A program made the position numbers and the translations under genes. DNA of 64,000 bases. Origin: Rhytidiadelphus loreus (lineage: Eukaryota; Streptophyta; Bryopsida; Hypnales; Hylocomiaceae). The DNA lies in contig OX344765.1 in assembly GCA_947034895.1 (NCBI GenBank), positions 25,611,001 to 25,675,000 of the forward strand, given 5' to 3'. This document shows positions 7,270 to 46,014 of the stretch, piece after piece; the first letter of the stretch is position 1, and every line of letters begins with the position of its first letter. The notes under the pieces are model-generated. The model was not told the DNA's origin and searched no databases. It saw nothing but the letters and a program-made list of their open reading frames with translations.

Positions 7270-7935
7270 GTAGCAAGTCCTTCAGTGTTTCATTTCTTGT
7301 AGATTGTGGCGGTTTCTAACTCGCAAGTGTGGATGGTATCGATCATACGTAGCTCGCAACGAGTTGTTACGTTGAACGTTAGACATGTTCATTCTGTTTT
7401 TGGAGTCATTGGGGTGTACTGGAACTTGAGGACCAGTCTCAATTCTCTGTACAGCTCTCTGTTGCTAGACTTTACGAATTATTTTTCTTGTAGATTATGC
7501 CGGGTTTTGACTAGCAAGTGTGGTGAGTAGCTCATCTCGAGTCTTTCGATTGAAGGACATGTCCATTCTGATTTTGAGAGGCCAATGGGTTGTACTGGAA
7601 GAGCACTTGTCTGAATTTCTCTGCTAAGCTTTCTGTAGGTCATCTTGAATTATTGAATTTCTTGTAGATTTTGGCAGTTTTTGACTAGCAAGTGCGGGAA
7701 GTAGCTCGCTTCGGTTGTTTACAGTGAAGGACATGTCCCCTACGATTTTTGAGACCACTGGGGTGTACTGCAAGCGCACTTGTCTGAATTTCTGTGCACA
7801 ACTCTCTGTAGGTCATCTTGAAGTGTTGAATTTCATGTAGATTCTAGCGATTGTAGCAGTTGACTAGCAATTGTGGTTGCACTCTTCAACTTTTACATTG
7901 AAGGATAATATGTCCATTCTAATATTTTGAAGGTC
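7270..7935 (+). promoter_or_regulatory. 5' flank of the phospholipase gene with degenerate ~175-190-bp tandem repeats
   Basis: Four diverged repeats share the words TTGTAGATT, a form of TTGACTAGCAAGTGTGG, ACATGTCCATTCTGATTTT and GGGGTGTACTGGAA. Anchor words fall near 7,297, 7,490, 7,664 and 7,837, a spacing of 173-192 bp. The block ends about 120 bp before the chosen ATG at 8,055, so it lies in the promoter, the leader or a leader intron. A regulatory role is inferred from position only. Confidence 0.55.
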
Positions 7936-15570: not shown

Positions 15571-16022
15571 ACACTAAAGATGATATTTAGTGTCTTGTAC
15601 ACTAAATACGAAGGCATACACTAAAAGCCAATTATCCTATGAAAGTAAGTAACATTAAATGTCAATTCAAACACTAAATGTGAACCAGAGTTGTCATATC
15701 AGACGGAATATCACTATTCACTGACAGAATCGGACCGATTAGGGCTAGCCGGCTGCAAACTTCAGAGCCTTGTAACTTTTGCAAAAATTCTTCAAATAAG
15801 GAAAATGAGATGTTTTTCGGCATCTACAAAAAATTGTAGATGCCGAAAAACATCTCATTTTCCTTATTTGAAGAATTTTTGCAAAAGTTACAAGGCTCTG
15901 AAGTTTGCAGCCGGCACATTCAAGTCTAACACTAATTGTGGACAAGTTCAGATTTAGTGTTGTAGCTAGTAGGGGGGTAAAAACACTAAATGTCACTCAA
16001 CACTAAATATCATCTTTAGTGT
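15571..16022. mobile_element. CACTA-ended MITE with nested palindrome
   Basis: Perfect 23-bp terminal inverted repeats (15,571-15,593 and 16,000-16,022) begin ACACTAAAGATGATATTTAG. The element is flanked by the 3-bp duplication AGT (15,568-15,570 and 16,023-16,025). The CACTA word and 3-bp duplication suggest mobilisation by a CACTA/En-Spm transposase. Several further ACACTAAA words lie inside near both ends. There is no coding capacity. Confidence 0.75.
15748..15915. repeat. perfect inverted repeat, 82-bp arms, 4-nt loop
   Basis: Arms 15,748-15,829 and 15,834-15,915 are exact reverse complements around the loop AAAA. They start GCCGGCTGCAAACTTC and end GCAGCCGGC. It sits inside the CACTA-ended element. 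If transcribed it would form a fully paired hairpin, suited to Dicer processing into siRNA. Perfect pairing argues against an ordinary miRNA precursor and for a young foldback or a conversion-maintained palindrome. Confidence 0.95.
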
Positions 16023-18784: not shown

Positions 18785-19975
18785 ATGGATACTTCAACAC
18801 ACAACTCCTCTAATAAACTAGAGCATATGGAGATTGAGGACTCTTCATCACCAAACAACAACAAGAGAGGAAAGGGAGAAAAGACACCTATATTGTGAAA
18901 AAAGTCAAGAAATTCCACTAAACTAGTAATCACCACCCCACGATCTCATCATCTCATCATTTTTGGTATGGCTTTCCTATGATGGAGGCATTGGCAAGAA
19001 AGAGAGGGAATAGGATATGCTCTAGTATACCAAATCCTACTACACTTTTTCAAACCAAAGAAAGATTATAGCAACGTTGATATTATCAAGATGACCATTG
19101 AAAGACTACTTAATATGCATATTATATTAGATGGCTTTCTAGAGCTGATTATACCATTATGCAACCTCAGAGGGGCCAATGTATGGAATGAAATGATCAA
19201 GATTCATCTAAAAGATCCAATCAATGATGGCACGATGTTGCTACATGGCAAAAGAGTTTTTGCACTCGAATTGGACGGATCCTTACACTTGGCCAAAGTG
19301 ACTAAAGGATATGATAGTCTAGCTTGAATAAAAGATCTCTCAATCAAAATCACCATCCTCAAACTTGTTGGACTCTATTCATACTAGATCATAGAAAAGA
19401 TTCTTAAAGATAGTTTTATACATAAATTTTAGTTTGAGATAACCCAAATTATCAAGGAAGTTGATGAAGACCATGCATACATTATCACAACATTTTTAGA
19501 TCAAAGAACAAAGCTTATGAAGTTCAAAGTGGCAATTTTGGAAGAGCTCATTCAACCTACAACCAACAAAATTGAGCAACTCATTGAACTGGACGTAGCC
19601 AAGAAGAATTGTGTGGTTCTTGTAGCTACCAACCACAACATGGCCAAAACCTCAATGGAAATCAATGAGGGACTCAAAAATATTATGGGGGACAAAAACA
19701 TAGTAACCACTTATTTTTCCAACACTAAGAATGGCATGCATAATGGCAAAGTTAACATAGATTGCCTCAACCCAACTATCTACAAACAATTTTCAAAGAA
19801 AACCGGGAAACTCCATTCCAAATCTATCAAATTCAACCCACATCCTCATAGCCTTGATGGCTCAAGTGCACCGGATGAACACACCCTCAAAAATTATGGC
19901 TTTGGGGATGGCAACACATCATTAGCAGAGGCAGTAGTAGCTTTCAAAAATGCACTAGGGGTAGGAACCTCTTGA
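18785..19975 (+). pseudogene. decayed unrecognised reading frame, interrupted by the hAT element
   Basis: Three open segments on the top strand (18,785-18,898, 19,091-19,327 and 19,517-19,975), separated by stops or shifts, read like parts of one protein. Landmarks are MDTSTHNSSNKLEHMEIEDS, then DGTMLLHGKRVFALELDGS, then LDGSSAPDEHTLKNYGFGDG. I do not recognise the family. An old transposon gag- or ORF1-type product is possible from style alone. The frame ends at the hAT insertion point. Removing the element and one copy of the 8-bp duplication continues the same frame, after its stop, into 34,759 onward (EVTQEEINTLVTKVVTKGN), which supports both the insertion and the older identity of this sequence. 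Confidence 0.5.
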
Positions 19976-19978
19976 AAT

Positions 19979-19989
19979 CAAGGTTGACA
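19979..19989 (+). repeat. left terminal inverted repeat of the hAT element
   Basis: CAAGGTTGACA, preceded directly by target duplication copy CTTGAAAT at 19,971-19,978. It differs from the right end at one base. Confidence 0.92.
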
Positions 19990-19997
19990 AATTTCAA

Positions 19998-20290
19998 CGT
20001 CCGGGGCAAAATCACGTCCATTTTTCGGACGTCCGGACGTCCGGACGTCCACATTTTCGGGACGCGCGGACGATGTGGACGGCGTCCATCGGATGGCACC
20101 CGTCGGCCGTTCGGACGACGCGGACGGCTGGTCGGCACGGTCGGCGCGGTCGGCGGACGGATCGACGGGCGGACGGCGGACATGTCCGCGCGGTCGGCGG
20201 ACGAAAGGCGCGGACGGTGGACGCGTCCGCGCGGATGGCGGACGGAAGGCGCGGACGGCGGACGACGCGGACGGGCGGACATCCATAAAA
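19998..20290. repeat. left subterminal GC-rich CGGACG array
   Basis: Dense CGGACG/CGTCCG words, including consecutive palindromic GGACGTCC copies at about 20,035-20,052, then GGACGGCG, GGCGGACGG and CGCGGACGG words. GC content is far above the flanks. Unlike the other arrays it is not upstream of a gene: it follows the transposase 3' end. This favours a role at the transposon end, probably transposase binding. All long frames here come from the repeat. Confidence 0.85.
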
Positions 20291-20547
20291 CTACAGTACA
20301 TGAAGCCAAATTTGATGCATTATACTATTACATTTTTGTAGGTAATACTTGATCCAGAAAATGATGCACACAATGTAATTTCAGTCAATAGTGCTTGACT
20401 ATTTAGAAACAAAAAAACCTTAATGATATTTTGAACATCATTAAGTTCAGGTGCATTACAATGATAGGTTCAAAAAATAAATTGTTGTTACATGCTTCCA
20501 TGTAACAATTCATTATGAACACTTGAATAATGAATTATACATCCCTT

Positions 20548-23500
20548 TCATCCCAAAGGCTGATAATCACTATCTCCTTTCACCTCTACCCCGCTACTAT
20601 GACCTCTAGTATCCCATCCTGAATCTTCATCTTCATCGTTGTCTGACTTTTCCATATCCTTTGATAAAGATTGTACAATTGCCCCTCCTTGTACTTGCTT
20701 GGATGCAACTGACCTCGTTGGTCAGCCCTTCCTCTGCTCTTGTTTGGCTCTTAGTATAGACTTTCCTATGCCTTCTTTAAGGCCATGAATCGGTTTTAAT
20801 TTCCTCGCTGAAATTGGTTGACATACATCAAGAGGGGTTTTACCAAGACTTTGTTTCTTTGATGGGGAAATTGCAAAAGCCTCCATTAATCTTTTATTTC
20901 GAGCTTTGTGGGACTCTTTCACCGTTGGTGGTCTTACTTGCGATCCTCCTTGATTGGGTATCTTTGCTCCAATCATCTGCTGCAATGTTCCATCAGACGA
21001 TTTGAATGAATCACGTTTTGTTTGGCCAAAACGTTGACCAAACATTGATGCCAATGTCTCGTCCTTCTCATCATCGCTCCATGATGAATTGAATGGATCT
21101 AGATTGACACGAAGGTGCATTCTGGTCGGACTGGTCAAATGTTGTTCAACTTGTTTCCCAAATCTTGAGCCTCCGGGACCATTCAAAGTTGTATTACCTC
21201 TTATATGTAGTGTTGATGGACGATCGTTACGTGGTCGTAATTGGAGATCTTGCACAATTTGCTTCTAGTCTTTGACGTTGTGAACTAGCATTGGGCGATC
21301 AAACTCCGTCACACGTGCATCTACATTCGATGGTAATTCCACACATTCAACACTTGTATTATCCACATTCATGTTAGACTTCACCCCACACTCTCCCATG
21401 TCATTGACTTCGGGATTTTCTTCTACAAGTGCCATTGCCATGGGTAGACTCTTGAGAATTGGAATCACTTCATCTATTTGGGGGATGCAATCATTGACAA
21501 ACATTGCCTCATTTTCCTCCACTATTTGCGCATGAGTGTCCTCCGTATTGGCTAGAATCTTTTCGCTAGTCAACAACCCGATTCCATCTACAAATTTAGC
21601 TATAGAAGGGCCACCTTCATCGTATTCACAATTGTCCTCATCCAATGGAAAGTTGTAAATGTCTTCCGCATTTCTATCCCCTTCTTCATTGTTCCAATTT
21701 GGGCTCCGGAGCGGTTCATCATCCAAATTGGTGATGTCATCATTCATAGCATCTTTGTCATCGAATAGAGGATCACCATCTTCACCATCTTCATCACGCT
21801 CGTCCTCCGACATAGAATCTTCCGACTCCACATTCTCGGTGTACCACTTCTTCTCATCGTTTTCCTTTGATGCAGAAAGGACTTTGGAATTGGTGTACAC
21901 ATACACCAAATCTTGGGCTCTCTGTGGCTTCAACTTGTTTCGAAATTTGTTGTGAACAAATGAATAGCTACTCCAATTTCGTTCACATGAAGATGAAGAT
22001 ACCGGTTGGGCCAAAATCCTCTTAGCAATTGGAGCAATGAGCTTCCCACACGCACCTTCAAAATCCCACCAAGCGTGCGCCGACAATTGTTGCTCGTCCG
22101 GGTTCAACATGTTGTGAAATGGAGGTTCCCTGTGGCGGAAGGCTACAAATTCTTTCACGACCGAGGCGTACTCCCCTTGTTTGCAAATTTTCATTAGAAT
22201 ACGCTTGCATGCATCCATTGCATCTTGGTCGTCGGCTAGCTCTTGATCTTCAAGAAGGTAGGGGTTCAACAAAGCTCCTGCATAATGTAGATCGGTCTCC
22301 ACCAATTCCCGTCGGGCATAATACGGTTGCACTAGTGGAATGACAAGGTCTGAGGATAAACGAAAAGGCGGTTTATCTAAAGAGAGGACATGTTTATCTA
22401 ATTTCCTCATTATGTGCAGCACCTTGCCCATGCATGGCCTCTTTGCATCCAAGTCACGTAGACCATTTACAACGGGAGCCGACAAGTCCTTGAAATTTTG
22501 ACAATGGCGCCAAAAATGCTCGCTCAAAATTATCTTCTTCACCATCCGACATTCATTGCGGGATTTGGAGTTCCGCCCAAACTTCCTTGCGTATTCATCC
22601 CATTGCGGGTCCGTCACTGTTTGTTGCAACTTCCCATTGACCTTCAACATGCGCCCAATCATGTTGTAATTAGAGGCAAACCTTGTTTCCACCGCCATCA
22701 ACAAATTATATTCCGGTGAGTACTTCCGAAATATTGCAAGTGGCATGTGCCGCTTCTTGAAGAATTTCACCACGATACGGGCATTTTCCACGACCTCTTC
22801 AATCCATTGTTCATTCCCCCAATCTTTCAGCAACAAATTGAAGGCGTGCACCACACAACCTTGAAAAAAAATGTGGGGATATTTACTAGATATCAAATTC
22901 CATGCTGCAGGGTTCACTGACGCATTATCTGTACTCACCTGCACTACATTGTTGGGGCCTACTTGTTCTATGAAGCTCTCAAGTATGCTAGCCAAGTATG
23001 TTGCATTTTTTTCGTGCCCTGTCGTATCCACCGCTCCCAAGAATTGCTCACCTGCAGAAGACACGAGCATGGCATTTATCAACGGCCGATTCGTAACCGA
23101 CGTCCATCCATCAATAGACAATGTTGCTCCAAACTTCCTAATGTTGTGTTCAGTCCGCTTTCGGAGATTGACCTCAATGTCTGTCTTTGCTTGGTCAAGC
23201 AATTTATGGCGTAAGTCGTGATAAGACGGTGGGATATAAGGCCGTTGAAACTCGGCGGTTCGCTTCACCGCTTCTTTGAATGTTGGATTCCTCGCAACAG
23301 CAAATGGTATGTTTGCAGCATAAAAGAAATTGGCCCACACCGCATTCAACTTGCGTTTATTTGCTTCTTCAAATCCATTCACCAGACTACTTTGCTTCTG
23401 ACTAATCAGAGGCCTACTGCTTGATCCCCGTGGAGTACCACGCTCACTTGATCTTTGTGTACTGAGGTTCACTTCAAAAGACAATGGATCCAAATCCTCC

Positions 23501-23850
23501 GGTGCAGTGCATGAGTCGGAATGTGTAGACCGTGCCATGTTTCTTCCATTTGAATTATCGCATTCCCGCATAGCCATAGGTGTGCCACTGCCATCCACAT
23601 TGTTCAGAGATGATCTTCATAGGATCGCCCCTTGGCAACCCAAAAATAAAGCTCGAACTTGAGATGTCATTTTTGCGCAAAGGCTAATTCCTTTGTCATG
23701 AGCCCCCGATGTGCCTTGGTATCCTAAGTGGCTAAACAACCGGCTTATTTTCTTGGCAAACACCAAGTTGCAAAACCGGCATTGCACTTTACCAACCTCC
23801 GGGAAGCCATACCAAGAAGACCAATCCTTGCTCATAGTGATCACCTCCAA
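20548..23850 (-). CDS. hAT transposase (BED-like, DUF659, hATC), one frame with three in-frame stops
   Basis: One frame of 1,100 codons runs from ATG 23,850 to TGA 20,548-20,550, broken only by TGA (23,617-23,619), TAG (21,265-21,267) and TGA (20,722-20,724). The N-terminus has WYGFPEVGKVQCRFC and later H and C residues, consistent with a BED-like DNA-binding finger. The uninterrupted middle (777 codons) holds SIDGWTSVTN and STDNASVN, placing catalytic Asp at about codons 247 and 308, then the hAT insertion motif CVVHAFNLLLKDWG. The hATC dimerisation region is AWWDFEGACG to SSSSCERNWS. Acidic and basic tails follow. Product would bind the element's ends and catalyse cut-and-paste transposition in the nucleus. 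No frameshift occurs over 3.3 kb. Either these are nonsense changes, with the middle possibly still made, or readthrough or introns bypass them. Confidence 0.9.
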
Positions 23851-24162
23851 TTCCGTAAATTGGATTCAAATTAAAAATGTAACCGTTGGATAAGATTTGT
23901 AAAAAATATTAGAAACAATGTGTAAATGAAGCCTTGGAAACCAAAGCCCCCCTGTCCACTGAACTATGCATTACCAAGCAAGGGACACAAAATAAATTGC
24001 AGCTCCTAGCCCTTGGAAATCTTAGTGTTCAGTTTCTCAAGAGTGCTTGTTAGTCTGAAATTCTAAGAACTTATAGATTTCAGATCAGGCCCATTCCTCA
24101 TGACCGTTGAGCAGCAAAAACTAAAACATTTCTAAAGCCCCAACGGTTCCGAGAACAAAAAT

Positions 24163-24351
24163 GCGGACGGCAGCGACGGCAGCGCGGACAGCGACCTGCG
24201 ATAGGCGGACGGTAGCGTCGGAAGCGCGGACGGCGACCTGCGACAGGCGGACGGCAGCATCGGAATCGCGGACGGCGAGCTCCGACAGGCGGACGGCAGC
24301 GGCGGAATCGCGGACAGCGAGCTCCGACAGGCGGACGGCAGCGTCGAAATT
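24163..24351. promoter_or_regulatory. 42-bp (2 x 21) GC-rich array upstream of the transposase
   Basis: Units start at 24,163, 24,205, 24,247 and 24,289, with a partial one from 24,331. Each reads like GCGGACGGCAGC-CGGAA-CGCGGACGGCGA-CTCCGACAG. Read on the minus strand, each is two 21-bp half-units beginning CCGTCCGC. It lies about 310 bp upstream of the transposase ATG and also past the RING gene 3' end. Promoter or transposase-binding function is inferred from the same boxes appearing at every gene of the element. Confidence 0.8.
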
Positions 24352-24721
24352 GTAGGCGGGTGGCGGACTAGCGGACGGCTGGTGGATTTTGAGTAATTCA
24401 TTAATTCTACAAGTTTTAATTTTAGGGACTTAGTTTAGAGATGCACGTAATTTTAGGAATACAGAAATTAATGAGATAAAATTATGTTGAGAGATAGGCA
24501 TGTCCAAAATCATACTTGACAAAAAAGTATCGCATAAAATATTAAAAACTTAGGAGAGTAAATTCAAAAACATTTGAGTAACCCATATATTTTTATATTA
24601 ATGAAAAGCAACTCATAGCATACTATGAGTGTTGTGAATTAATAGTATTGAATCCTCTCGAGATTCAAAATTAACAACACTCCATAATGTCATATCGAAA
24701 TACAAACAAGGTGTAACTACC

Positions 24722-27700
24722 CTATATATTATCCGTGCTACCTCCCTCAGAAAGACGCGACGAACCCTCTTTATCCTTCAACCTTGCACTTGCACGGCGT
24801 GTTTGAGGACCAAGATTGCCCTCACTCATAGGCCCCCTGGACGTAGCTTCCATGTCTACTGCGGAAAAGTGTCGTTTCGTATCCGGAGAGTAGTCATCCT
24901 CGTCTTCAATCTTCCGTTTATTCTTCCGTTTTGGAGTCAAATCCACGTCTTCTGCCTTCAACGCTCTCAAAACAGCATCCACTTTATCTACCAAAAAGTT
25001 GACCACGTCATCATCATTTTTCATGGAAAACCACTTTGGTTCTTCTCCCCCCACTAAAAATGCCCTCCAATGCATTATGATTTCGCCCATCCTCTTATCA
25101 AATGCCCCCGCCACCTCCACCATTGAATTTTCTGTGCTTGATTGCCCATCTAGTTCCACAAAGGCACGAACTTGTGCAGCTTCCTCCAACTTTGATAAAA
25201 ACAGGGCCCTCCCTAGCAAAGTGTGATTGTAATCCCCGTATTGCTCATTAAACTCTTGTGTTGGCTCCACCTCTATCCAATTGCCATCTAGTCCTTTCTT
25301 CACTTCCTTTTCGGGAAATCGAAAGAATTTGTGGTGTTGCATGCTCCAATGGCCCCCCATACTACGACAAAACACTTCTCGATCCTCCTCGTTGGCAATA
25401 CCTCTAGCTCGCAACTCCACCTCTCGATCGTGGGTCATCCACACCAAGGAATCTATCGACACCTCCGATGATTCGTATAGCCCATGTGTAGAATTTACCG
25501 AATCCCACGTTAGACTTTTTCCCCAATGCGCATAATTTTGAAATTTGAATGGCTCTTGGTCTAACGGAAGGGTCCATCGATTGTATTCATGGCTGGGGGG
25601 CATAGCTTCCGAGATCCCGAGCATTTCGTAGAACCTAGGAGGCAAGGGAGAACGACACTCGGGGCACACCGAACGAATAAGGGATGCTCTCACGATGCAT
25701 GTGACGTGGAAAGTGTGGGGACATTGGCCCATGGTGAGGGCTCCCTTAGGCCCAAAATGAACTCGACAAAGGCTACAATGACCCTCCAATATTAAGGCCG
25801 AAGGATCACAAGCATGCACCATTGTCTTGTCATTCTTCTTGATGTGTGCCAAAAGCGTGGGATAAGGGACCCAACCTTCTTCTAGTTCCAAGGCCCAATT
25901 AATGGAGGCCACCTCTTCCTTCTTTGTGTGGTTCACACGCTCGAACATTGCATCCATGTCTCCCCAATATGTGATTTCGGTAGACCCCGTTGGCACAAAG
26001 GCAAACATCTTCTTCAAACGCCAAAGAAAGGACTCCACGCTATCGCATTCTTCATCCGACTTCATTGCCAATTTGAGTAGCCCTTTCATTGCTCGTGATA
26101 TTACAGACGGTTTGTCTTCGAGTTTTTGCACCCATGCCAACCATCGAGAGTCCAAAGTGCCCTTTGGCATACATTCATCCAATTGCACTATCCGTTGCAA
26201 TCGTTTCAACTCGGCCTCCAAACGTGTGTTTTCTTCGGTGACCTCGTTCAATTTTTGCTTCAATTCTTTGACCTCATTGCTTTCCGTTTGCATGGAAGCA
26301 TCGTGGAATGTCAAATTAGTATTACCGATGGGGGTCAAATACAACAAATCCGGATTGTTGTTTTCCTCAATGCCATCTAGTCTGTCCTCCACTTTCTCCT
26401 TTCCCTTCTCAACAACCACCTCACCTTCTCGGATTTTTTTCTTCAACGCTACAATTTCGTACTCCAAGTCTTCAATAAACTTCCTTTGGAAAAGCAATGT
26501 ATTATGGCGACGATCTGATTGAGCCTCCAATGTCTCTAGCTTCTCTTTCAATTTCGAAGCATCCGCCGCCAACTTGAGATTCTCAACATCTATACCCTTA
26601 TACTTCTTGATCTCCTTTTGGTATTCACTCAAAACCTTCAAATCTGTAACACGCTCGTCGAGAAATGGTGTCATAGATTGGCTGAACTTCACGAAGTCCA
26701 AGGCACCACTCAACAATTCAGGCGCTAATTTGGAAAAATCCGTTGCAACTTCTTGCAGCCTTGGAGCGACTTCTGCTACAAATTGAGCCGTAACTGCCAA
26801 TTTTGATGCGGTCAAAACAAAATCAGCCCATTGACTCTCGGAAGGCTCATCTTGGGTTTCCGCGCCTCCGTTACTCGTGCCATCCTCGTTGGTGTGCTCC
26901 ATGTTCTTTAAACGTTCTTCGTGTGACCGCCACAAATGTGAACCTTTACACAAAGATTCTAATAATGCAACCGAGGGCATCCGACGAACAATTTGCCATT
27001 TTGATGTCCTCAATGATGACAAATGTGGATACTTGGAATCGATAAATCCACCAAGAATGGTCTCATTTGGCAGCACGCCATTCGATTGTTCTCCATGATG
27101 AGGTGAAGGATGCACCTCAACTCCTAGATTCAATGTCGGGCTCGGTGTCTTCGGCAAACTTTGCTTCGAAGTACTTGCCAAATGATTTAAAGCATTGCTG
27201 TCTATAAGATTCTGAATGGCAATTCCCGCATTAGCAACTTCTCCCTCAATGACATCATCATGACGTTCATGTGGTGCGGATGGGGCCACGTGCTCCACCA
27301 TTGTTGTTCCATTTGGTGTGCATATCAAATCCATTGGAGGAGTTAAAAATATGTCTCCTTCCACATGCTCGCCTTTGAAATCTTGTATTGCCGTACGGTT
27401 TTGTGTTGAAGCCAATTGCATTGCCGAACTTGTGACCTCCACGTCCTTGGTCATAGTCATTGTCATTGGTTTGACCTCTCTTTTGGATTTAAATGCCTCA
27501 CTTGGCCCTGCTTGTGGATTGTACAAATCAGGAATATCTTTCCGATTACATTCAAGCACACGTGGAGCGTTCGTTGTCGTTGGAAACATGCTCCAATCCA
27601 CCTTGCGTGCCAATATCAATTCTGCATACACCATAGAAGCCAAGCTGTAGTTTATATACCCCTTGGACATTGCTTTATCCCCGAAGAGGGCCCGCCAAAC

Positions 27701-28081
27701 TTCATGCGCTCGGTGAATGAAGTGCGCATTGTTGCAATTCCCTGGTTTGCAACAAAAACCACGAGTATGGATGATGTGGGCCTCCCTAGGCTACAACTTG
27801 TCGATGTGGTACATCTTCACATACTTCTTGCACGTTTTGGAGGACCAATATTCCGCTTCCTCCGCTTCCCAACCACCCTCTGCTTTGATGTTGGGATCAT
27901 CTAAAATCTCATAGTGGAGCTCATGGGCGGTTCCCTTTGGTTTAGGCCTCCTACTATTGTCACCTCCGCCGGTCAACCCACCACTACCTTCAACGCATTG
28001 ACCACTCATGGTTGTCAACTTGAACTTGTCCCCAATTGAATTTAAATAGTCACCAAAAGTATGTGTCTTCAATCCACCCAA
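24722..28081 (-). CDS. RING-H2 finger, coiled-coil protein carried by the hAT element
   Basis: The 982-codon frame (27,670-24,722) continues in phase upstream through an in-frame TAG at 27,791-27,793 to ATG 28,081, giving about 1,119 residues. Before the stop: an acidic stretch and YWSSKTCKKYVKMYHIDK; after it: CNNAHFIHRAHEV and YAELILARKVDW. This region is shared with the small protein at 33,028-34,125. Numbering from 27,670: coiled-coil-prone heptads at about 340-500; RING-H2 at 632-672 with CSLC, GQCPHTFHVTC and CPEC; nuclear-localisation-like PKRKNKRK at 913-920; basic C-terminus. RING-H2 domains usually confer E3 ubiquitin ligase activity; the substrate is unknown. A TATA-like CTATAAGGG lies at about 28,244-28,252 in the GC-rich array. 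The TAG could be CAG mutated by C-to-T, or the working start may be 27,670. Confidence 0.85.
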
Positions 28082-28239
28082 GTTTCAATGAATGTTTGTA
28101 TGTGAACCAATAATGATAGATGAATGACCCCACCTCTCCACCATGTAGGAGCAACTGGCACAATGAAGCAACAGTAGCACATCCAACACGGTTCTGAGTC
28201 CTAGGAAGGAGAGGGAAGTGAAAAAAAACAAGAAGGCCG

Positions 28240-28612
28240 TCCGCCCTTATAGCTGTCCGAAACCAAACCTACAATCGTCCGCCACCGAACCTCCCGCGAC
28301 CAATGCGAAGCGGACCCGAACGTCCGCTCAATCGGACGGCCCATCCATCTCCAAATCCGACGCTGCCATCCGCCTTCCCGCTGCCGCCATCCGCCTGCTG
28401 CCCCCCGTCCGCGATTCCGACGCTTCCGTCCACATTTCCGACGGGCCGTCCGCCTGTCGGAGCCGCCATCCGCGTGCTGCAGGCCGCCGTCCGCCTGCTC
28501 CGACGGGTCCGTCCGCATTTCCGACGCTGCCGTCCGCCATTCCGACGGGTCCGTCTGCATTTCCGATGCTGACGTCCGCCCTTCCCTCCCCGAGGTCCGC
28601 CCAAGCACACTT
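28240..28612 (-). promoter_or_regulatory. GC-rich 21-bp-phased promoter array of the RING gene
   Basis: Consecutive 21-bp units of form CCGTCCGCATTTCCGACGCTG end near 28,570, and looser units fill the rest. Reading toward the RING gene, CTATAAGGGCGGAC gives a TATA-like core at the gene-proximal edge, about 165 bp before ATG 28,081. The unit matches the half-unit of the 24,163 array. Confidence 0.75.
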
Positions 28613-28689
28613 GGGGAGTTTGGGCCTTGTTTTCACCCTCTTGAGTCCTCTAGTCCTCTCCTGATTTCCAGAAGCATAGGATTCTTTCA

Positions 28690-29998
28690 TTTGGGAATGT
28701 AGAGATGTTGTACTAGTACCGGGTGCTCATTGATGAAGGAATGTTTCAATGTTCGATGCATTGACTTGGTTTTCATAAATGTCAAGGCAATCCACGGACT
28801 CAAAGGTAGTATTTTGACTAATGCAATGCCTCCAAACCCTTGTTAGGGTTTAGGGTATAGGGTTTAGGCCTTTCGTTGTCCAAATGGGGGTGACAATCAC
28901 AATCCTTTGTCTTTGATTTTGGATAAACAAATATGCCCCCCAAAATTCCAAATAGAACTAATAACAAAATGGAAAGGAGTTATTGAATTGCAAACAATTC
29001 CCAAGGTCCAATTCATGTAATATTCAAAGTTGATTAATTTTCCAATGGATCAAATCTTTTAGAGGTTTGAGTGCCCAAGCCATTCAAAGTGTGTTGTACG
29101 TATGAAAAAAAAAATGGCCTTTTAGTATCCACAACGAAAGAAACATTTGTCCTTGCATTTCCTAACCATGTAGATGTTTAGACTTTAAAAAATTTGCTTG
29201 AATGCCTAGTAGGGTGCACATGAACTTGTGAGGTTATAAGAAGACAAGTGTATGCACTATTTTCATAGCACGTTGTCCCACCCTAGTGATTGAGCAAGTT
29301 ATAATTTCATACTAGAATTAATTTAACTTGATATAATTGGCGCTAATATTTTAGCACCTTATGATTCTTTAAAGAATGGAAATCAATACATTGGAAATCA
29401 ATAAATTCATTCAACTCAAAGGGAGGGGGGGGAGACTTTTAGAAATCTACTTCCACACGTTTTCATGCTAGAGTATCAAAACCTTTGCAAGCCCCTAATA
29501 TCCCCTTCATGTAAAATACCATTTAAAAGAATTTTTGTCTTTGGTTTTGAAATGACCATTTTATGAGGTGTTGACATACAAGAAACAAACCTCGTAGCTT
29601 CATTTGGACAATGAGAAGCTTTAAGTTTTTTCTCGAAGTTCAAATAAGTAGAATTAAATTACCATGTGTTCAATTCTTCATTTCATTCAAAAATTTATAT
29701 CATAGGAAATTCAATTGCATCCCTAGAAAATAAGAGAAAATTATAAACTCAATGCATGCACGTAAAAACAACATAAAAAAATATGTGAATCTTTTAGATA
29801 ATTCCTAAATTCACACATCCTTTTTTCTATTTATTTTTTAATTTTTAGATCAAATGAAATCCCAGCGCCATTAGCACAAAGGAACCACATTAAAAATGAA
29901 ATTGAACCGGAGGGCCAGCCAGCTGGTGACATCAAGGATTCAAAGACCCCTAAGGCCGTAATGATGAATTTGGGCGGGATGCACTTCAAAATCCCACC
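28690..29998. other. spacer between the two divergent cargo promoters
   Basis: AT-rich, non-coding as far as seen. Near 28,840-28,872 lies a short degenerate telomere-like tract with the words TTAGGGTTTAGGG and ATAGGGTTTAGG. No gene or inserted element with clear ends was recognised. Confidence 0.5.
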
Positions 29999-30320
29999 CC
30001 CGTCCGCTTAGGCGGACCCCGCCGTCCTCCGTTCCCACGCTGCCGTCCGCGCGTCGGAGCCGCCGTCCGTGTGCTGCAGGCCGCTGTCCGGCTGCTGATC
30101 GCCGTCCGCGATTTCGGCGCTGCCGTCCGCGTCGCGGAGTCGGCGTCCGGCTGGGCGGTCTGTTCTGGTCGTCCGATGAAGCGGACTGCCGATCCGTGCG
30201 TTTCATCGGACGGCCGAAGCGAGGCGGACAGTTGGCCGTCCGGTTTGGGGTCCGTCCGCTCGTGCGGACCTCGAGGCCGTCCGCCTCATATAAGGCGGTG
30301 CGGACAGCCCGTCCGCTCTC
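29999..30320 (+). promoter_or_regulatory. GC-rich promoter array of the kinase-like gene
   Basis: CCGTCCGC-type units at about 20-21-bp spacing (GCGCGTCGGAGC, GCGATTTCGGCGCTG and GCGTCGCGGAGTCGG variants) precede a TATA-like CATATAAGG at about 30,286-30,294. A further CCGTCCGC box flanks it on each side. The predicted transcription start would be about 200 bp before ATG 30,519. Confidence 0.75.
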
Positions 30321-30518
30321 ACTTTTGCCTTCCCCCTTGTGCTTTGCAAGAGAGAGCGGAGAGCTTGGTGGTTTATCCTCCATTGGCTCCTTTCGTTGGG
30401 AAGGTAGGAGGTGGGTTTTGGGGGCCTATATTTTGCCCGTTTTTTCCAGTTTATGTGTACTTGGTGCACTGTAATTTTTTATGAATTAAATTGGGACTAA
30501 AAATTAATACTTTCTACA

Positions 30519-32003
30519 ATGCTGAGACCGAAGAGAGCGGCGAAGGGGAAGAATGTGGTGCCCGATATTGACTCAGCACGTGAACTTCCTTCCAATGCTT
30601 GCAAAGCATTCTTGATTGAATACATTGTGAAGTTTTATGAGGCGGAAACTACAGTGTCTCTTGACACTAAATATGTGAGATACCAAGAGGAATGTGTAGA
30701 CAAATTCAAGATGGATATGACACAGAAGTTCACGGATGCTCTAAACGTTCCAGAATGGATTCATGAAATGGAGAAGAAAGGCTTCCAACAATTTCTAAAG
30801 AACAGGGTGCAAGACGCATTGTGGAATGCGAAGGTGATCCTAGAAAAATACGGGAGGGAACACCGTGCAAGTGATGAAAGCTTTGAACAAGTCATTCTCA
30901 AAGCTGACTTGTTTGTTCGTCGTTGCGCTCCGTTTGCAAAGAGACGCAATCGGCGAGGGTCATTGGGTTGGTGGACTTCGGATGAAGGAGATGTAGAATT
31001 GCAACGTGGACGACGACATCTCATAGTACTACCAAACACAGCAAGGGTGATTCTACAAGATGACAAAATCTTGAAGGGCGGATACGCAACAATTCGCAGG
31101 GTTCGAATTGAAGGATGTCATGAGATTCCCACATTTTGGGAATTTGCTGCAAAGATATCTCATCAACAACGGATTCGTCCTCAACTTGCGAAGTTGGAGC
31201 ACCAAAACGAATCAATGGCAGTGAGGATTCCACATGACGGAGTTATTCGGTTTGCCGCTGTCCATGCAACAAACAATGAAGGGTATGCATATTGGTGGAA
31301 TGGTGGTACATTGCGGCAAATGTTGATTCTCGATAATGATTATCCAGATAACATTGCCATTCGATTGTCTTATTCACGACCAACGCCCGAAGAGGTGATT
31401 CAAGCTTTCCGTCTTGGTCGATGGAGAAAGAAGCGCACCGAGTTGGCATGGGCATTGGTGCATATCATGAATGCGGTCCACAATGCGGGTCATCTACACA
31501 ATGATATTTCTCCCGACAATATCATGTTTCACTTTCCTGAGGATGAATCACGTGTTTACATTGGAGTTTGCGATTGGGGCATGTCTACGGTTCGTACTGA
31601 ACCAATGAAGTCATTGTATACGTTCACATCCGCGGCAGATCGGGATGCAGCTTTGAACCGAAGGTGGTGGGTGGACCCTTCAATTGCATACGTGCACCGC
31701 AAAGATGCGAATGTGGAAATGATTCCAACTTTGTCACGTAAATCGGAGGAATATGTCGTTGGTCGAATAGCTCAACGGATCAACAAACTATGCATGTCAG
31801 AGGCCTACACATCGCTTCATCGTGAAAATGAAGGACATACGAGGTTTAGCCACCATGATTTGGCAAGGGTATTTCACCTCTACTTGGATCGCCTTTGCAA
31901 TTCAGTGATTGCGGAGCGCGGAAGTTTTTCCGAAATCATCCAACGATTTACTAATTCTTACAATTGGCCTATTCCAGATGACCACTTCCGTCACTCATAT
32001 TAA
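30519..32003 (+). CDS. protein-kinase-like protein carried by the hAT element
   Basis: An uninterrupted 494-codon frame from ATG 30,519 to TAA. Residues 1-180 are an N-terminal region rich in charged helices that I do not recognise. The kinase-like part follows: a glycine-loop-like LKGGYATIRRVRI (185-197), FAAKIS with the candidate ATP-binding Lys at about 212, catalytic loop HLHNDISPDNIMF (325-337) with Asp329 and Asn334, and CDWGMS (351-356), where DFG is replaced by DWG. The key Lys, Asp, Asn and metal-binding Asp are all present, so activity is plausible. The sequence is remote from ordinary plant receptor kinases. It is transcribed opposite to its neighbours. Being the only large frame here with no lesion suggests selection or youth. 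Function in transposition is unknown. Confidence 0.82.
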   Translation: MLRPKRAAKGKNVVPDIDSARELPSNACKAFLIEYIVKFYEAETTVSLDTKYVRYQEECVDKFKMDMTQKFTDALNVPEWIHEMEKKGFQQFLKNRVQDALWNAKVILEKYGREHRASDESFEQVILKADLFVRRCAPFAKRRNRRGSLGWWTSDEGDVELQRGRRHLIVLPNTARVILQDDKILKGGYATIRRVRIEGCHEIPTFWEFAAKISHQQRIRPQLAKLEHQNESMAVRIPHDGVIRFAAVHATNNEGYAYWWNGGTLRQMLILDNDYPDNIAIRLSYSRPTPEEVIQAFRLGRWRKKRTELAWALVHIMNAVHNAGHLHNDISPDNIMFHFPEDESRVYIGVCDWGMSTVRTEPMKSLYTFTSAADRDAALNRRWWVDPSIAYVHRKDANVEMIPTLSRKSEEYVVGRIAQRINKLCMSEAYTSLHRENEGHTRFSHHDLARVFHLYLDRLCNSVIAERGSFSEIIQRFTNSYNWPIPDDHFRHSY

Positions 32004-33027
32004 TATATGAGTGTGCTACATAGTACTATAGATTATAGAAGTAATCGATAAATGTATCAGTGAGGATGTACGTTACTATGTGTGCTAACTATAGACTATA
32101 TATACACCATCAATGTATGCCAATATATGTGAAATTGGCTTTCCGTTTTGAACATTTTGTATTTTCCGGAACACAAACTATTTAAATACAAAACATCTTT
32201 TTTGGGTGGATGAGAAATGTAGACTTGGAGTTCTTCTTCTTGATGTATCATTGATGTTGGATTGTTGGGTACCTAGCCACCTAGGTTGGCAAGGTGGTGT
32301 GCTAAATTGTATGATCTATCGTGTAAATGTGTATGGCACATGCAAGAGAATCCCCCAAATTTTCATTGGGAGGCAACAAAGTAACAACATCATTTGTATT
32401 GAAATAATACAATTATACAATATGTTGTTTTGCGAAGTTGATTTTGTTTAGGAGAAGCTTAAGTGCCAAACTCCTTGAATCAATTTTCCGTTCATTATTC
32501 TAGAACCCTAAATGAAATTAAAATTCCAAAGCATAATTGGGTTGTGGTCTTGTAAATTAAACCGAAATTGCAAATTTTAATTTGTAAAAAATTCTTTACT
32601 GAAATTTTGTCTGAGATTAAAGGCGTTCTCAATTTCAAATGCAGTGCTTATCATGCCATATCTTTCAATCCATGCAGTCAAAATTTTTGAAATTTTGGCG
32701 CCATGCTCTCAAATAAGTTATGTACAAAATACTTTATTTAAATTCCCCCCAGAAATTGATGTTGATGTTTTTCTACGGTATATACCGTAGAAGTGGTCCG
32801 AACAAATCCATTTTTCTAAAAACATCCATAGGGCTTTAGGGCTTAATTACAATATATTTTATTCATAATTTACAAATAGGAAAATACTATTTGTTAAGAG
32901 CCAACATCTTTGTACCGTGCTTGTCACTTTCTATATTATGTGGCAAGAGATTACAAATTTACAATCACTTGATTGTATTGTGAGACAACAACTACAATCT
33001 TACAAATGTCCAATAGTCCAATCTACT
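32004..33027. other. spacer between convergent kinase-like and small-protein genes
   Basis: The two genes' 3' ends face each other across this AT-rich kilobase, so it should hold both 3' UTRs. It includes a perfect 22-bp palindrome at 32,771-32,792 (listed separately). An 81-codon frame at 32,206 has no support. Confidence 0.5.
32771..32792. repeat. perfect 22-bp palindrome with no loop
   Basis: The half-site TTCTACGGTAT is followed exactly by its reverse complement. It lies between the two convergent genes. It could be a dimeric protein-binding site or a small hairpin in a 3' UTR; neither can be decided. Confidence 0.8.
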
Positions 33028-34125
33028 TCACTCAGATTCTGATTCGGTGTCATCTTTTTGGCTTGGGCCTGTACCACTAGACCTATAAACATTGAGAAAT
33101 GGTCCTCCGCCATAGTAGTCGTCTCCATATCTGTTTTGCCCACTTGCTTGTCCATAATGTCCTTGGTATGGACCTCCAAAAGTTGGAGGAATTGAATCAT
33201 TGTGAGTAGATGCTCCTTGAGTTGAACCGCCATAAGAAGGGCCTCCTTGAGGTTCATGAGAACCAACTCCAGTAGACGTAAAGTTGTATTGGGAGCCTCC
33301 CTGGTTACCTTCAAAATGATGTGTGGTTCCGTGGCTTGTCCTTGAGCTGTGATACCCCCCTTGAGGATCATTATTGTAGTGTGAAATACTTCGCGTATCT
33401 TGCGAGCCATATGCACCACGATCGGGTCTGTACACCCCATGATGGCCATATTGTCGACCACGGTCCTCTAGGCTTCTTTGCATTGCCTCTCGCATTTCTT
33501 GTTGGTATTGAATGTCCTCCCGATCTTCTGTACGCTCGTGCCTCTCTTCCATCCTCGCGGGTGTTGGAGTGTCTTTCTCATCATCATCACCTGACCATTC
33601 ATCTTCTGCATCCGGCAATACAACCGGTGGAAATCCAAACTGGCCTCGATTAGACCACTCTGGCATGCAATCGCTCGGCCCAATCCAACTGGTATAAAGT
33701 ACCGCATCACTGCGATTCAAGTGGGTAACATCTTTTCCGTAAATTGTACGCCAATCTACATCTTTGTGGAGTACAATCTCCGCCCAAACCATGGTCATGT
33801 TGGAATAGTTCATTAAATTCGGTTTGGAGTCCCGTATTTGAGCTGAACGTGTTACTTCCTCGTATCGATGAACAAAGTGTTTGCTTTGGCATGTGGAAAT
33901 TTGTCCTTCCCAACGACGAACTTGCACCTCTGCGCGTTCTCTGGACCATATTTTGGAGAGGTGCGTCATTTTGATGTACTTCTTGCACGTCGTGCAGTCC
34001 CAAGTTTTTTTGGGTTCTTCTTCCCAATCCGGTTCAGCTACACACATTTGGTTGTCCCAATCATCCCAATTTATGTCTTGGGATTTGCCCTTCTTACTGG
34101 ACTTCGATTTCTTATTGCGAGGCAT
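33028..34125 (-). CDS. small acidic protein sharing the RING protein's N-terminal domain, with a G/Y/S/Q/H-rich tail
   Basis: 365 codons from ATG 34,125, chosen because the following MPRNKKSKSSKKGKS is a plausible basic start; the frame stays open 11 codons further. Residues about 40-135 parallel the RING protein: WDCTTCKKYIKMTHLSKIW versus WSSKTCKKYVKMYHIDK, CQSKHFVHRYEEV versus CNNAHFIHRAHEV, and VWAEIVLHKDVDW versus VYAELILARKVDW, then LY and GPS. The Cys/His pattern suggests metal binding, which is inference. The C-terminal half is low complexity (Gly, Tyr, Ser, Gln, His), resembling disordered condensate-forming tails, and ends DTESESE. A TATA-like ATAAATAG on this strand at about 34,294-34,301 lies at the edge of the right-end array. 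The two related proteins probably arose by duplication within the element. Confidence 0.8.
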   Translation of the reverse strand: MPRNKKSKSSKKGKSQDINWDDWDNQMCVAEPDWEEEPKKTWDCTTCKKYIKMTHLSKIWSRERAEVQVRRWEGQISTCQSKHFVHRYEEVTRSAQIRDSKPNLMNYSNMTMVWAEIVLHKDVDWRTIYGKDVTHLNRSDAVLYTSWIGPSDCMPEWSNRGQFGFPPVVLPDAEDEWSGDDDEKDTPTPARMEERHERTEDREDIQYQQEMREAMQRSLEDRGRQYGHHGVYRPDRGAYGSQDTRSISHYNNDPQGGYHSSRTSHGTTHHFEGNQGGSQYNFTSTGVGSHEPQGGPSYGGSTQGASTHNDSIPPTFGGPYQGHYGQASGQNRYGDDYYGGGPFLNVYRSSGTGPSQKDDTESESE

Positions 34126-34289
34126 GGTAAGCTTGCTTAAATGATTAATGATTCGCACTTACACTTGAAACAATTTAGGGTTCGATCACAATCATTTGCA
34201 CACCAAAATGGAAGAGGCGCACAGAGCCTTAGGCACTAGATCACCCACTCCGCAAGGGAAACGATTGTAGCAAAATAAGCCGTGCTCTC

Positions 34290-34739
34290 CGCTATTTATG
34301 CAGTCGGACGGCATGAATCCATGTACGGGAGCATCGGACGGCACACATGCGGACGGCAAGATCGAACGGTGGAAAATCGGCGTACGTCACATCGCACGGT
34401 CACCGTCCAAAGCGGACGGGCCCTCGACGGGCGGACGGACATCCGGTCGCCAGTCCGCCCCTGTTCCGTCGGGCCGTCCGCTTCTGCTCCATCGGGCCGT
34501 CCGCTCCTGTACCGTCGGCCCGTCCGCTTTTGTTCCGTCGGGCCGTCCGCTTCTGATCCGACGGGGCGTCCGCTTCTGTACCGTCGGCCCGTCCGCTCCT
34601 GCTCCAACAGGCCGTCCGCTCGTGTTCCGTCGGAAGAATCGGCCGTCCGCTCGTCCAGCGGTCAAATGCCATCTACCGCCAGGTATGTCAAAAGACGTCC
34701 TGGGGTCAGCGTCCGCGGACTCGGGACGTCCGGACGCCC
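34290..34739 (-). promoter_or_regulatory. right subterminal GC-rich array and small-protein promoter
   Basis: Eight 23-bp units run from 34,453 to 34,636, each starting GTCCGC and ending near TCGGGCC (starts 34,453, 34,476, 34,499, 34,522, 34,545, 34,568, 34,591, 34,614). Looser CGGACGG words flank them. Closest to the terminus is GTCCGCGGACTCGGGACGTC, echoing the left end. The array combines an upstream promoter position with a transposon-end position. Confidence 0.85.
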
Positions 34740-34750
34740 TGTCAACCCTG
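34740..34750 (-). repeat. right terminal inverted repeat of the hAT element
   Basis: TGTCAACCCTG, the reverse complement of CAGGGTTGACA. It is followed directly by the second CTTGAAAT at 34,751-34,758. Confidence 0.92.
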
Positions 34751-34758
34751 CTTGAAAT

Positions 34759-43599: not shown

Positions 43600-45305
43600 A
43601 GCGAGAGTTTGCCTCGGGAAATCACGAGGATTCTAGCTGCGACTAGAAATGGCTCGGGAATGAAATAAATTGTAACTTGTCGAATCTTCAAATCTTCGAG
43701 TCTTCAAATCTTCAAACTGCTACTCGTTGTCCTATCCTGCTGTATTTCTAAATAGGCCAAGGGTTAAGGTAGGGTGATAAGAAACCACGGGCTTCGGATG
43801 TGTAAAACGGGACGGCCAGACCACGAGCTGAGCCGTCCGAGGAATTGGATCCTAAATTTCAAACCCACGGTGACCAGTAAACTTGCCTCACCAGTGGGAA
43901 CAACATAAAAATCTCGACCATGTGGGCAATTAACCCCACTTCGTCGCATCCACAACACCAAATGAGGCTAGTATTGGTGTGAACCAAACTGCCCGCAACA
44001 ATAAAATGAAATTTACAAAGCCACAAGCCACACACACACAAACACAAAAGTCTTCCAACTCCTCCAACTCCTCCAACTCCAACTCCAACTCCAACTCCAA
44101 CTCCAACTCCAACTCCAACTCCAACTCCAACTCCAACTCCCAAGTTGATCTTTGGATGAGTGTCTCTGTTGATCTATAACTCCAAATGAACTAAATGATA
44201 GCTTTTCGGAAAGCTAAAATAATCATCTACTTCTCCTCCAAATTTCATACAATTCTAAGACTGTGTCCAAACTCTATGGCCATCCAAAGTTTCGGCCTTG
44301 AGAAGGGAAAGGCAGCAGACCTTCCTTCGCTTCCACACTCACAACTTTCTCATACAAACTCCAAACAGAACTAATGATAGCTTCATGAAAAGCTAACACA
44401 ATTTACTACACTCCCTCCAAATTTCATGGCAAAACAAGAACCTGTCCGTCTTTTATGGTCGGTCGAAGTCTCTGCCTCTTAATTTTAAAGGCAACAAACC
44501 TCCCTCCACTCAAACTAGCACAACTTTTGCTTCACAACTCCAAATCAAGCAAGTGAGATCAATTTGAAAACTACACACCATGATACACAACACCTCCAAA
44601 TTTCATTTCAAAATACTTCAAAATCACAACACAATGGGCCCTCAAACATTCGGGCCTTCCTAAACTCACAACGGGAGAGACGATGAATAGTGTTCCCTTT
44701 TTTCTCCACCTTATCTCTACTCTAACCACACAAACAAGTGGGGTCAGCCCCTAACTCACTCCCAAAGCTCTCACATCAATAATTGAGCCCTTATTTGACC
44801 CCACAACTATCTCTTTATCTTTATCTTAGAAAGAAAATTCACTTCAAGTTCACCTAGAAGGAAAACTATTTCATTAATTCCTTTCTATCTTTTCTTTCTC
44901 TATTTTCAACACCCAAAATGAAATCTACAAACAACTAACATAAAATAAATGTCTTCTCAAAGGTAAAAAACTAAAGTCTTCAAAGAAACTTCACTTCATC
45001 TTCAAAGAAACTTCACTCCATCTTCAAGAATTTGAGAATTCGCTTGATGGTAGTAGCAACAAACTCAACACGATCCGCCTTCGTCAAGGGATTAACCGGC
45101 CCCTCTAACCATCGTTGGTGACCGCGACTCCCTTTAATAGGCCTAACCATACAATAGTATTGATCGTCGTTAAGACCTTCAAAACTCCTTTCGAATGTCA
45201 CTTCTTGGGTACCAGGTTCAACACACCCAACCTGCAACAGGATCACTAGTGCTCGAGCTCCACACTGTAGGTTCCCGTGCCATCGCTGCTCCACACGGGG
45301 TTGCT
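43600..45305 (-). repeat. left arm of a 1.7-kb inverted duplication
   Basis: Matches the reverse complement of 46,015-47,765 along its length. Checkpoints are GTTTGCCTCGGGAAATCAC, CTGCTACTCGTTGTCC, CCATGTGGGCAATTAACC, CAAACATTCGGGCC and CAACACACCCAACCTGC. Divergence is substantial by eye, so the duplication is old. The arms face each other across about 0.7 kb. Confidence 0.85.
44056..44139. repeat. CTCCAA microsatellite
   Basis: Runs of CTCCAACTC then CCAACT repeats. It gives Ser-Asn, Leu-Glu and Gly-Val frames in different readings, all artefactual. The right arm lacks an equivalent expansion. Confidence 0.9.
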
Positions 45306-45471
45306 TTGGCGGTCAAGAAGGCCCAGATTCATCTGGAGGACGCTCGTGCGATAATGAAAGACCTAGCAGCTGAAGAGGTTGAGCCGGTAGTTGAGATAAC
45401 GAAAACTCAAACTCCGATTCTGGTAGAGGCTCCTCATCCTGAGACTCAGAAAAAACCCTCCAATTCGACAT
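45013..45471 (-). pseudogene. unrecognised small gene, one in-frame stop
   Basis: On the minus strand ATG 45,471 opens MSNWRVFSESQDEEPLPESE, an acidic Ser-rich start. The frame meets one TGA near 45,317 and then continues to the true stop at 45,013. The C-terminal part (VGCVEPGTQEVTFERSFEGL, then QYYCMVRPIKGS, then NPLTKADRVEFVATTIKRIL) is preserved in the right arm after a TTGCAG acceptor-like word, so it may be a separate exon with the stop lying in an intron. No family is recognised. At least three copies in this window suggest a repeated gene or transposon component. Confidence 0.5.
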
Positions 45472-46014
45472 ACTGAAATCTATAACATACAATAAAGAAA
45501 CTACTTCAAGTTTGGTGGCATTCTAAGATGATAACCTATTCTTATATAGATGGCTCATGTCATCGTGAGAAGGCGTCATCTTGAAGCTACTAAGGATGAT
45601 GTCATCTTTATTTTTATATTATTAAAACCAAATCTATGGAAATAATGTATTACTATGTATTTTTACACTATGTACGCATTTACAGTGCGACAACAGTCCA
45701 CCAAAGAGTCCGAATTAGATGAGTTTTAGGTTTTTAGAAAGGGTGTGAGGTAGGCTAATACCTTAGGATGATAGGATAGACTTTAGAAATAGGGACCCTG
45801 GAGACATAACATAGCATAATAGTGAATTAGGAGTCATTTGGAACCGCAGCTAGAAAGTCCCGTTTAAGAAATTAGCAAAAAAATTAATTGCTTAGAAGGC
45901 ACAACGGATTGACGCTTAGACACCCATTAGAGTAGAAACCTATCTTAACACTAGAACCTAATTGTGTTTGCTAATTTACCAAAGGTGGGTAAATAAGCGT
46001 CCACACCATCTCAA

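Follow-up and report, generated by a model that had tools for sequence, protein, structure and literature searches.

We describe here a 14.8-kb unit with four genes that has inserted whole at many sites in the genome of the moss Rhytidiadelphus loreus, making 8-bp target-site duplications. One copy lies in the 64-kb stretch analysed here (G000:C5:25611001-25675000 of a 407-Mb assembly), which as a whole we call the window. It occupies positions 19979-34750 (14,772 bp) and is very probably a multi-gene DNA transposon of the hAT superfamily, carrying, beside a transposase gene, genes for a kinase-fold protein, a RING-H2-like protein and a small protein. That the four-gene unit is mobile can be read directly from its copies; a shared regulon and a role for the cargo are proposed. 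Among the best 60 of 171 and of 170 matches, respectively, the plastid PsaA and PsaB of this assembly score highest against 8htu and 6l35, which are Physcomitrium structures, as is likely for a moss.

A four-gene unit at many genomic sites

The ends of the element in the window are as follows.

19971-19978: left copy of the target-site duplication, 8 bp, CTTGAAAT, with its exact partner at 34751-34758
34751-34758: right copy of the target-site duplication, 8 bp, CTTGAAAT
19979-19989, + strand: left terminal inverted repeat CAAGGTTGACA, which is CAGGGTTGAC in most listed copies
34740-34750, - strand: right terminal inverted repeat, CAGGGTTGACA when read on that strand

The 11-bp inner ends, CAAGGTTGACA and the reverse-complemented CAGGGTTGACA, match at 10 of 11 positions. 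Across the 64-kb window the pattern CARGGTTGACA is found with zero mismatches at these two ends only, and a scan of the element interior returned no other terminus-like site with up to 1 mismatch. The original prediction, a 14.8-kb hAT with 10/11 termini and an exact 8-bp duplication in precisely this interval, is borne out.

The same ends recur throughout the genome. The left terminus has 247 matches at up to 2 mismatches, the right terminus 171 at up to 1 and a 30-mer from the kinase gene 151 at up to 3, with 0 matches for the reversed-pattern control in each case; the termini are of the form CARGGTTGACR / CAGGGTTGACA. Pairing 100 of the 247 left and 100 of the 171 right ends, as nearest pairs on the same strand less than 60 kb apart, gave 42 end pairs, 28 of which measure 14.2-16.1 kb. 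The duplication test covered the 28 pairs of 13.5-16.5 kb; the larger ones among the other 14 may contain later insertions, of the sort seen in some of the fetched copies (6 and 7, for example). Exact 8-bp duplications flank 23 of the 28 paired elements (window included) and 2 more match at 7 of 8 positions, as compared with 0 exact duplications among 756 mismatched pairings used as a control.

Gene content was probed in the 27 other paired elements with 200-bp gene probes at the expected offsets, requiring the right gene and strand. Matches were obtained for the transposase gene in 27 of 27, the RING gene in 26 of 27, the small gene in 27 of 27 and the kinase gene in all 15 elements probed for it; in the other 12 elements, as in the window, a listed kinase match lies 2,658-2,861 bp from the right end. 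The single RING miss is fetched copy 7, in which an insertion displaced the probe and the whole RING gene is present in the sequence. Every probed gene was therefore in place in 26 of the 27 elements. Probe identities ranged from 93.9 to 100% (median 98.5), so that the sampled copies are ~94-100% identical over the probed stretches. For the kinase gene, copies were taken as the best 40 of 281 candidates, and their 99% identity represents the upper end of the range. Of 39 further copies of the kinase, ten were retrieved over a long span and five more as short pieces; spacer A, the kinase gene, spacer B, the small gene and the right end are present in all 10 long copies, which had been picked by their kinase, and the left end falls inside the fetched span in 4 of them. 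Other loci with the termini, the four genes and 8-bp duplications, by which the original prediction could be checked, are thus present elsewhere in the genome. Among the exact left-end matches listed, 34 of 86 lie on contig C3, which makes up ~21% of the assembly, and copies seem to be concentrated there.

The element also differs from its surroundings in composition. Between 20001 and 35000, 13 of the 15 kilobase bins have a G+C content of 0.42-0.53; the remaining two (0.32-0.34) are the spacers. In the two kilobase bins that adjoin the element on each side it is 0.28-0.37. The ratio of observed to expected CpG is 0.7-1.1 in 2-kb bins inside the element and 0.18 and 0.30 in the adjoining bins.

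Some observations speak against the reading as a multi-gene hAT transposon. Five of the 28 paired elements have no exact duplication (2 match at 7 of 8 positions, the others at 5, 2 and 1 of 8), and the same is true of 3 further complete copies beyond the 28-element set (fetched copies 2, 8 and 9). The zf-BED match of the window transposase (E 0.0061) reaches 17.0 bits and stays below the Pfam cut-off of 20.6. In addition, scanning de novo for the combination of 10/11 termini and an exact 8-mer gave 3 further hits in the real window and 5 hits in 10 shuffled windows. From the letters of the window alone, the match of termini and duplication is not decisive, chance being only a moderately unlikely explanation. 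The boundaries are nevertheless settled because other genomic copies show the same ends.

Another way to read the interval is as a composite, in which separate small elements that share arrays have been taken as one. Its internal arrays do face each other and a pair of AT-rich spacers lies amid the coding sequence, but no internal terminus was found at up to 1 mismatch, and the four genes and the spacers recur in the same order at different sites, with the duplications at the outer ends. Both spacers are present in 10 of 10 fetched copies. Such a composite is hardly credible, and an assembly join or a cluster of nested elements, which would have undone the original prediction, is rejected on account of the copies elsewhere with the same gene order and outer duplications.

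Genes of the element and the age of its cargo

All four genes could be mapped within the element.

20548-23835, - strand: transposase gene, a single continuous frame of 1,095 codons with a BED-like finger, DUF659 and a hAT dimerisation region
24722-28009, - strand: RING-H2-like protein gene, a single continuous frame with an N-terminal Cys/His domain, a long coiled coil and a RING-H2-like finger
30519-32003, + strand: kinase-fold protein gene, 494 aa, open in the window copy
33028-34125, - strand: small protein gene, 365 aa, open in the window copy, with a low-complexity tail

In the transposase, DUF659 (E 1.9e-36) and Dimer_Tnp_hAT (2.2e-10) both lie above the Pfam cut-off. Residues D169, D230, C254, H257 and E545 are nearly invariant across 16 transposase sequences; we take D169, D230 and E545 to be the acidic catalytic residues of hAT transposases and C254/H257 to be their C-x2-H. 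The element thus combines the features by which a hAT is recognised, namely an 8-bp duplication, short terminal inverted repeats and DUF659 with a C-terminal dimerisation region, while its size departs from the typical but non-defining 2.5-5 kb, the 28 paired elements measuring 14.2-16.1 kb. A sequence search of the PDB with the transposase gave one chance match (E 1.7), and scans of prokaryote genomes with the kinase and the transposase supported no relatives.

The window copy is a decaying copy. Its transposase frame has in-frame stops at 23617-23619, 21265-21267 and 20722-20724, and its RING frame has one at 27791-27793. Transposase relatives align through the window stops, and RING relatives are continuous at the position of the RING stop. 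An intron at the first transposase stop was considered and rejected, given that the relative P0072 aligns across it without a gap and P0073, like P0072, aligns in one match.

In the 1022-aa open part of the RING protein, the RING-H2-like finger occupies residues 671-713; the middle of the protein is helical and coiled-coil-like. Four relatives were found: three cover the full length, with 45-51% identity, and the other (31%) is shorter. When these three were scanned, P0069 alone passed a RING model, zf-RING_11, with 27.9 bits against a cut-off of 27. The structure model of the RING protein (mean pLDDT 35) is too poor for use. The original prediction of RING-type and kinase-like cargo proteins holds, with a RING match under Pfam's cut-off in the window protein, but the small protein, which had been called RING-related, has no RING in the Pfam scan; instead, its N-terminal domain is a paralogue of the N-terminal domain of the RING protein (37% over 114 aa). 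Pfam scans of the element's frames returned no further strong domain.

The kinase gene has 66 relatives at E <= 0.01, the nearest of which aligns end to end at 68% identity. In 27 aligned kinase sequences K212, E231, D329, N334 and D352 are invariant; these are the catalytic-type residues of protein kinases. Pkinase is found at E <= 0.01 in 26 of the 27 members; the window member falls below Pfam's cut-off. An AlphaFold model (pLDDT 85), in which the N-terminal part is helical, has protein kinases as its best PDB matches (E 6e-10), and the protein is accordingly predicted to have the fold of the protein kinase superfamily. The only kinase relatives named as eukaryotic are two from Ceratodon purpureus, one of which represents 126 member sequences. 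This one, P0035 (KC19_VG055000), is an annotated kinase gene whose tag suggests the V chromosome, and its cluster of 126 sequences may be a family of transposon genes that has gone unrecognised although the moss genome is annotated.

Relatives in other samples bear on the age of the cargo. Contigs of equal size are listed for transposase P0072 and RING P0068 (17,649 bases), transposase P0102 and RING P0070 (45,926), and transposase P0082 and kinase P0036 (27,639). These size matches recur between independent protein searches, and the protein tables give the longest contig, which is one contig in each case; from identical sizes alone, each pair is inferred to lie on one shared contig. A FastTree phylogeny of 59 transposases and that of the window (support values not printed) groups P0072 and P0102 in one subclade with the window protein, and places P0082 in a sister subclade and the named seed-plant proteins outside. 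The link to the kinase is probably older than the split between the subclades of the window and P0082. The cargo appears old because relatives of the transposase share contigs with relatives of the RING protein or the kinase in other samples. The relatives P0004 and P0112 bear the label of a Bacilli metagenome bin, which we tentatively take for plant contamination of a bin.

The frames are continuous and intron-free, and kinase and RING proteins occur as pairs in large DNA viruses, either of which could suggest a virus-derived or virus-like mobile element. However, IMG/VR scans with the kinase, RING and transposase alignments recovered no relative, and a Pfam scan of seven element frames found no capsid, polymerase or packaging domain. 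A viral origin is very improbable.

Repeat arrays, decay and a possible mechanism

The noncoding parts of the element hold five arrays and two spacers.

19998-20273: left-end array, 18 CGTCCG/CGGACG motifs, 14 of them as CGGACG; 242-420 bp between anchors in 5 copies
24164-24377: array upstream of the transposase gene, with 8 motifs that all read CGGACG on the + strand and mostly stand 21 or 42 bp apart
24075, - strand: TATA-like box of the transposase gene
28238-28578: array upstream of the RING gene, in which 9 of 10 motifs read CGTCCG on the + strand
28251, - strand: TATA-like box of the RING gene
28621-29999: AT-rich spacer A, within the element; 28650-29950 found in 10 of 10 fetched copies
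30001-30315: array upstream of the kinase gene, in which 11 of 12 motifs read CGTCCG on the + strand
30289, + strand: TATA-like box of the kinase gene
32004-33027: AT-rich spacer B, within the element; found in 10 of 10 fetched copies
34305-34736: right-end array, which is at once the array upstream of the small gene; 10 of its 16 motifs read CGTCCG, and it has 23-bp tandem units
34300, - strand: TATA-like box of the small gene

The placement of four gene units and their arrays inside the element, as originally predicted, is confirmed: the window has 69 CGTCCG/CGGACG motifs, of which 65 lie in the element and 64 in the five arrays. The arrays stand at the two ends and upstream of each of the four genes, the right-end array doubling as that of the small gene. 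Their core, GCCGTCCGC, is repeated in tandem with a spacing of often 20-23 or 38-45 bp, and the left-end array is irregular. The two end arrays contain motifs of both orientations, the commoner one making up 10 of 16 at the right end and 14 of 18 at the left, and stretches of 24164-24377 and 28238-28578 form inverted repeats with each other. Between copies, array length and motif number vary (2-20 motifs in the array 5' of the transposase gene in other copies) and the main orientation is kept. For all four genes a TATA-like box lies between the array and the start codon or at the array edge, although such words are common and make weak evidence.

We propose that the element is cut and pasted by its own long BED/DUF659/hAT transposase. 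The GCCGTCCGC arrays would be binding sites for a DNA-binding protein encoded by the element, most likely the transposase, which is favoured as the reader because arrays sit at both ends. A single array-binding protein might pair the ends and also drive or autoregulate the four promoters as a regulon. The products of the other three genes would be long-kept accessory proteins rather than passengers, acting on the host or the transposase, be it on stability, timing, silencing or repair. In its full form the proposal describes an old bryophyte lineage of giant hATs. A single element protein would read tandem GCCGTCCGC arrays both at the ends and at the four promoters, and a kinase and a ubiquitin-ligase-like protein would change how the host controls silencing, cell-cycle timing or repair, enabling a 15-kb element to move efficiently. 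This full form is put forward tentatively, with confidence well short of even.

Several results do not favour this proposal. The RING assignment of the window protein (zf-RING_2, E 1.6e-4) is under the Pfam cut-off, and the age of the cargo is read from contig sizes. Among copies, pN/pS is 0.52-0.76, which is near neutral once transitions are allowed for (observed/expected 0.9-1.32); therefore, selection on the cargo is visible only in the conserved protein relatives between samples. Finally, CpG sites decay at 28.2 per 1000 site-copies in the arrays and at 25.6 in the genes, a comparison in which the array alignments are less certain than the gene alignments.

Among the fetched copies the frame is open in 2 of 4 full-length transposase genes, 1 of 6 RING genes assessed (leaving out one RING copy with an insertion) and 9 of 15 kinase genes. 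Singleton variants exceed shared ones 4-8 to 1, as would be seen after a recent burst. Per 1000 site-copies, singleton transitions number 25.6 at CpG in coding sequence, 8.2 at the remaining C/G and 0.7 at A/T sites, a pattern that has the signature of methyl-cytosine deamination. Judged by CpG decay alone, the present copies give no sign that the arrays are protected from methylation; the sampled copies appear to be methylated throughout because array and gene CpGs decay alike.

The near-neutral divergence of copies after insertion would fit a passive capture, in which a hAT took up host genes in the manner of Pack-type elements and was amplified, the kinase and RING protein being useless to it; any function of the cargo is putative. 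Yet full-length relatives of the kinase (up to 68%) and the RING protein (up to 51%) recur in other samples, three single contigs, judged by equal size, join cargo with relatives of this transposase, and the cargo genes are single continuous frames with the same type of promoter array as the transposase gene. A recent passenger is unlikely because the cargo has been kept so long, and we consider passive capture improbable.

An anti-silencing system of the VANC type is an unlikely alternative. Here one of the element's own proteins (RING, small or transposase) would attach to the arrays and remove or prevent methylation along the entire element. The arrangement resembles that of VANDAL21 as set out in an excerpt of PMC5735166, with a short, dense motif in one orientation that is noncoding and evolves by tandem repeats; here 65 of the 69 window motifs lie in the element and array lengths differ between copies. 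Against it, array CpG decay equals gene CpG decay, and Pfam scans gave no other strong domain, with no direct comparison with VANC proteins made.

Outside the element, the window contains a perfect palindrome at 15748-15915 (82 bp, with a 4-base loop), a 173-bp tandem duplication at 7443-7848 within a region of raised G+C and CpG, and a long imperfect inverted repeat at 43675-47652, likely a separate element, with arms 79-92% alike and 1.6-3.8 kb between them. An open frame at 49989-50447 looks by eye like the N-terminus of a Tc1/mariner-type plant transposase.

Relation to known transposons

The amplification of a 15-kb hAT shows that this superfamily is able to transport a multi-gene programme and to retain it. 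Two questions thereby become directly testable: how a transposon benefits from having a kinase and a RING protein, and whether arrays held in common can serve DNA transposons as a coordinated regulon. Among the papers listed in a literature survey, judged from titles and the beginnings of abstracts, with Repbase and most subscription journals outside its scope, we recognised no hAT with kinase and RING genes.

Pack-type elements carry fragments of host genes and no transposase; the present element differs in that it encodes a transposase and cargo genes of whole length. CACTA (En/Spm), MuDR and other multi-gene DNA transposons of plants have an accessory protein beside the transposase, and subterminal repeats for binding and promoter control. 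Unlike this element, CACTA (En/Spm) and MuDR are not hATs, and we know of no transposon of this kind with a kinase and RING cargo. The VANDAL21 transposase is Mutator-like. As excerpted from PMC5735166, VANDAL21/VANC shares with the present element several genes per element and dense, fast-changing tandem motif arrays of one orientation in noncoding parts. The motif here is a different one, no VANC-like protein was recognised, and the sampled copies show no sign of hypomethylation.

Giant eukaryotic transposons, in the excerpted text of the review PMC6431247, are likewise large, cargo-bearing elements with accessory proteins. The word hAT is absent from the main text of that review and from the review PMC13317346, whereas this element is a hAT. 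DNA transposition is reported to be less efficient above 6 kb of cargo (excerpt of PMC6431247), and excerpts of PMC3942097 and PMC9674265 give 2.5-5 kb for hAT elements and 0.6-3.4 kb for fungal ones.

The closest relatives are the members of the hAT superfamily itself (Ac, Tam3, hobo, Hermes; BuT2 in PMC3942097), with which the element shares 8-bp duplications, short terminal repeats beginning CAGGG, DUF659 with a C-terminal dimerisation region, and repeats near the ends. It differs from them in being 14.8 kb instead of the 2.5-5 kb given in PMC3942097, in its four genes and in its 1,095-codon transposase with a long C-terminal part. Its repeat arrays, moreover, also stand 5' of every gene. 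Subterminal binding sites are a feature of hAT elements, and the arrays described here resemble those as well. By the features tested, the element is filed within the known hAT superfamily, and we regard its architecture as new there.

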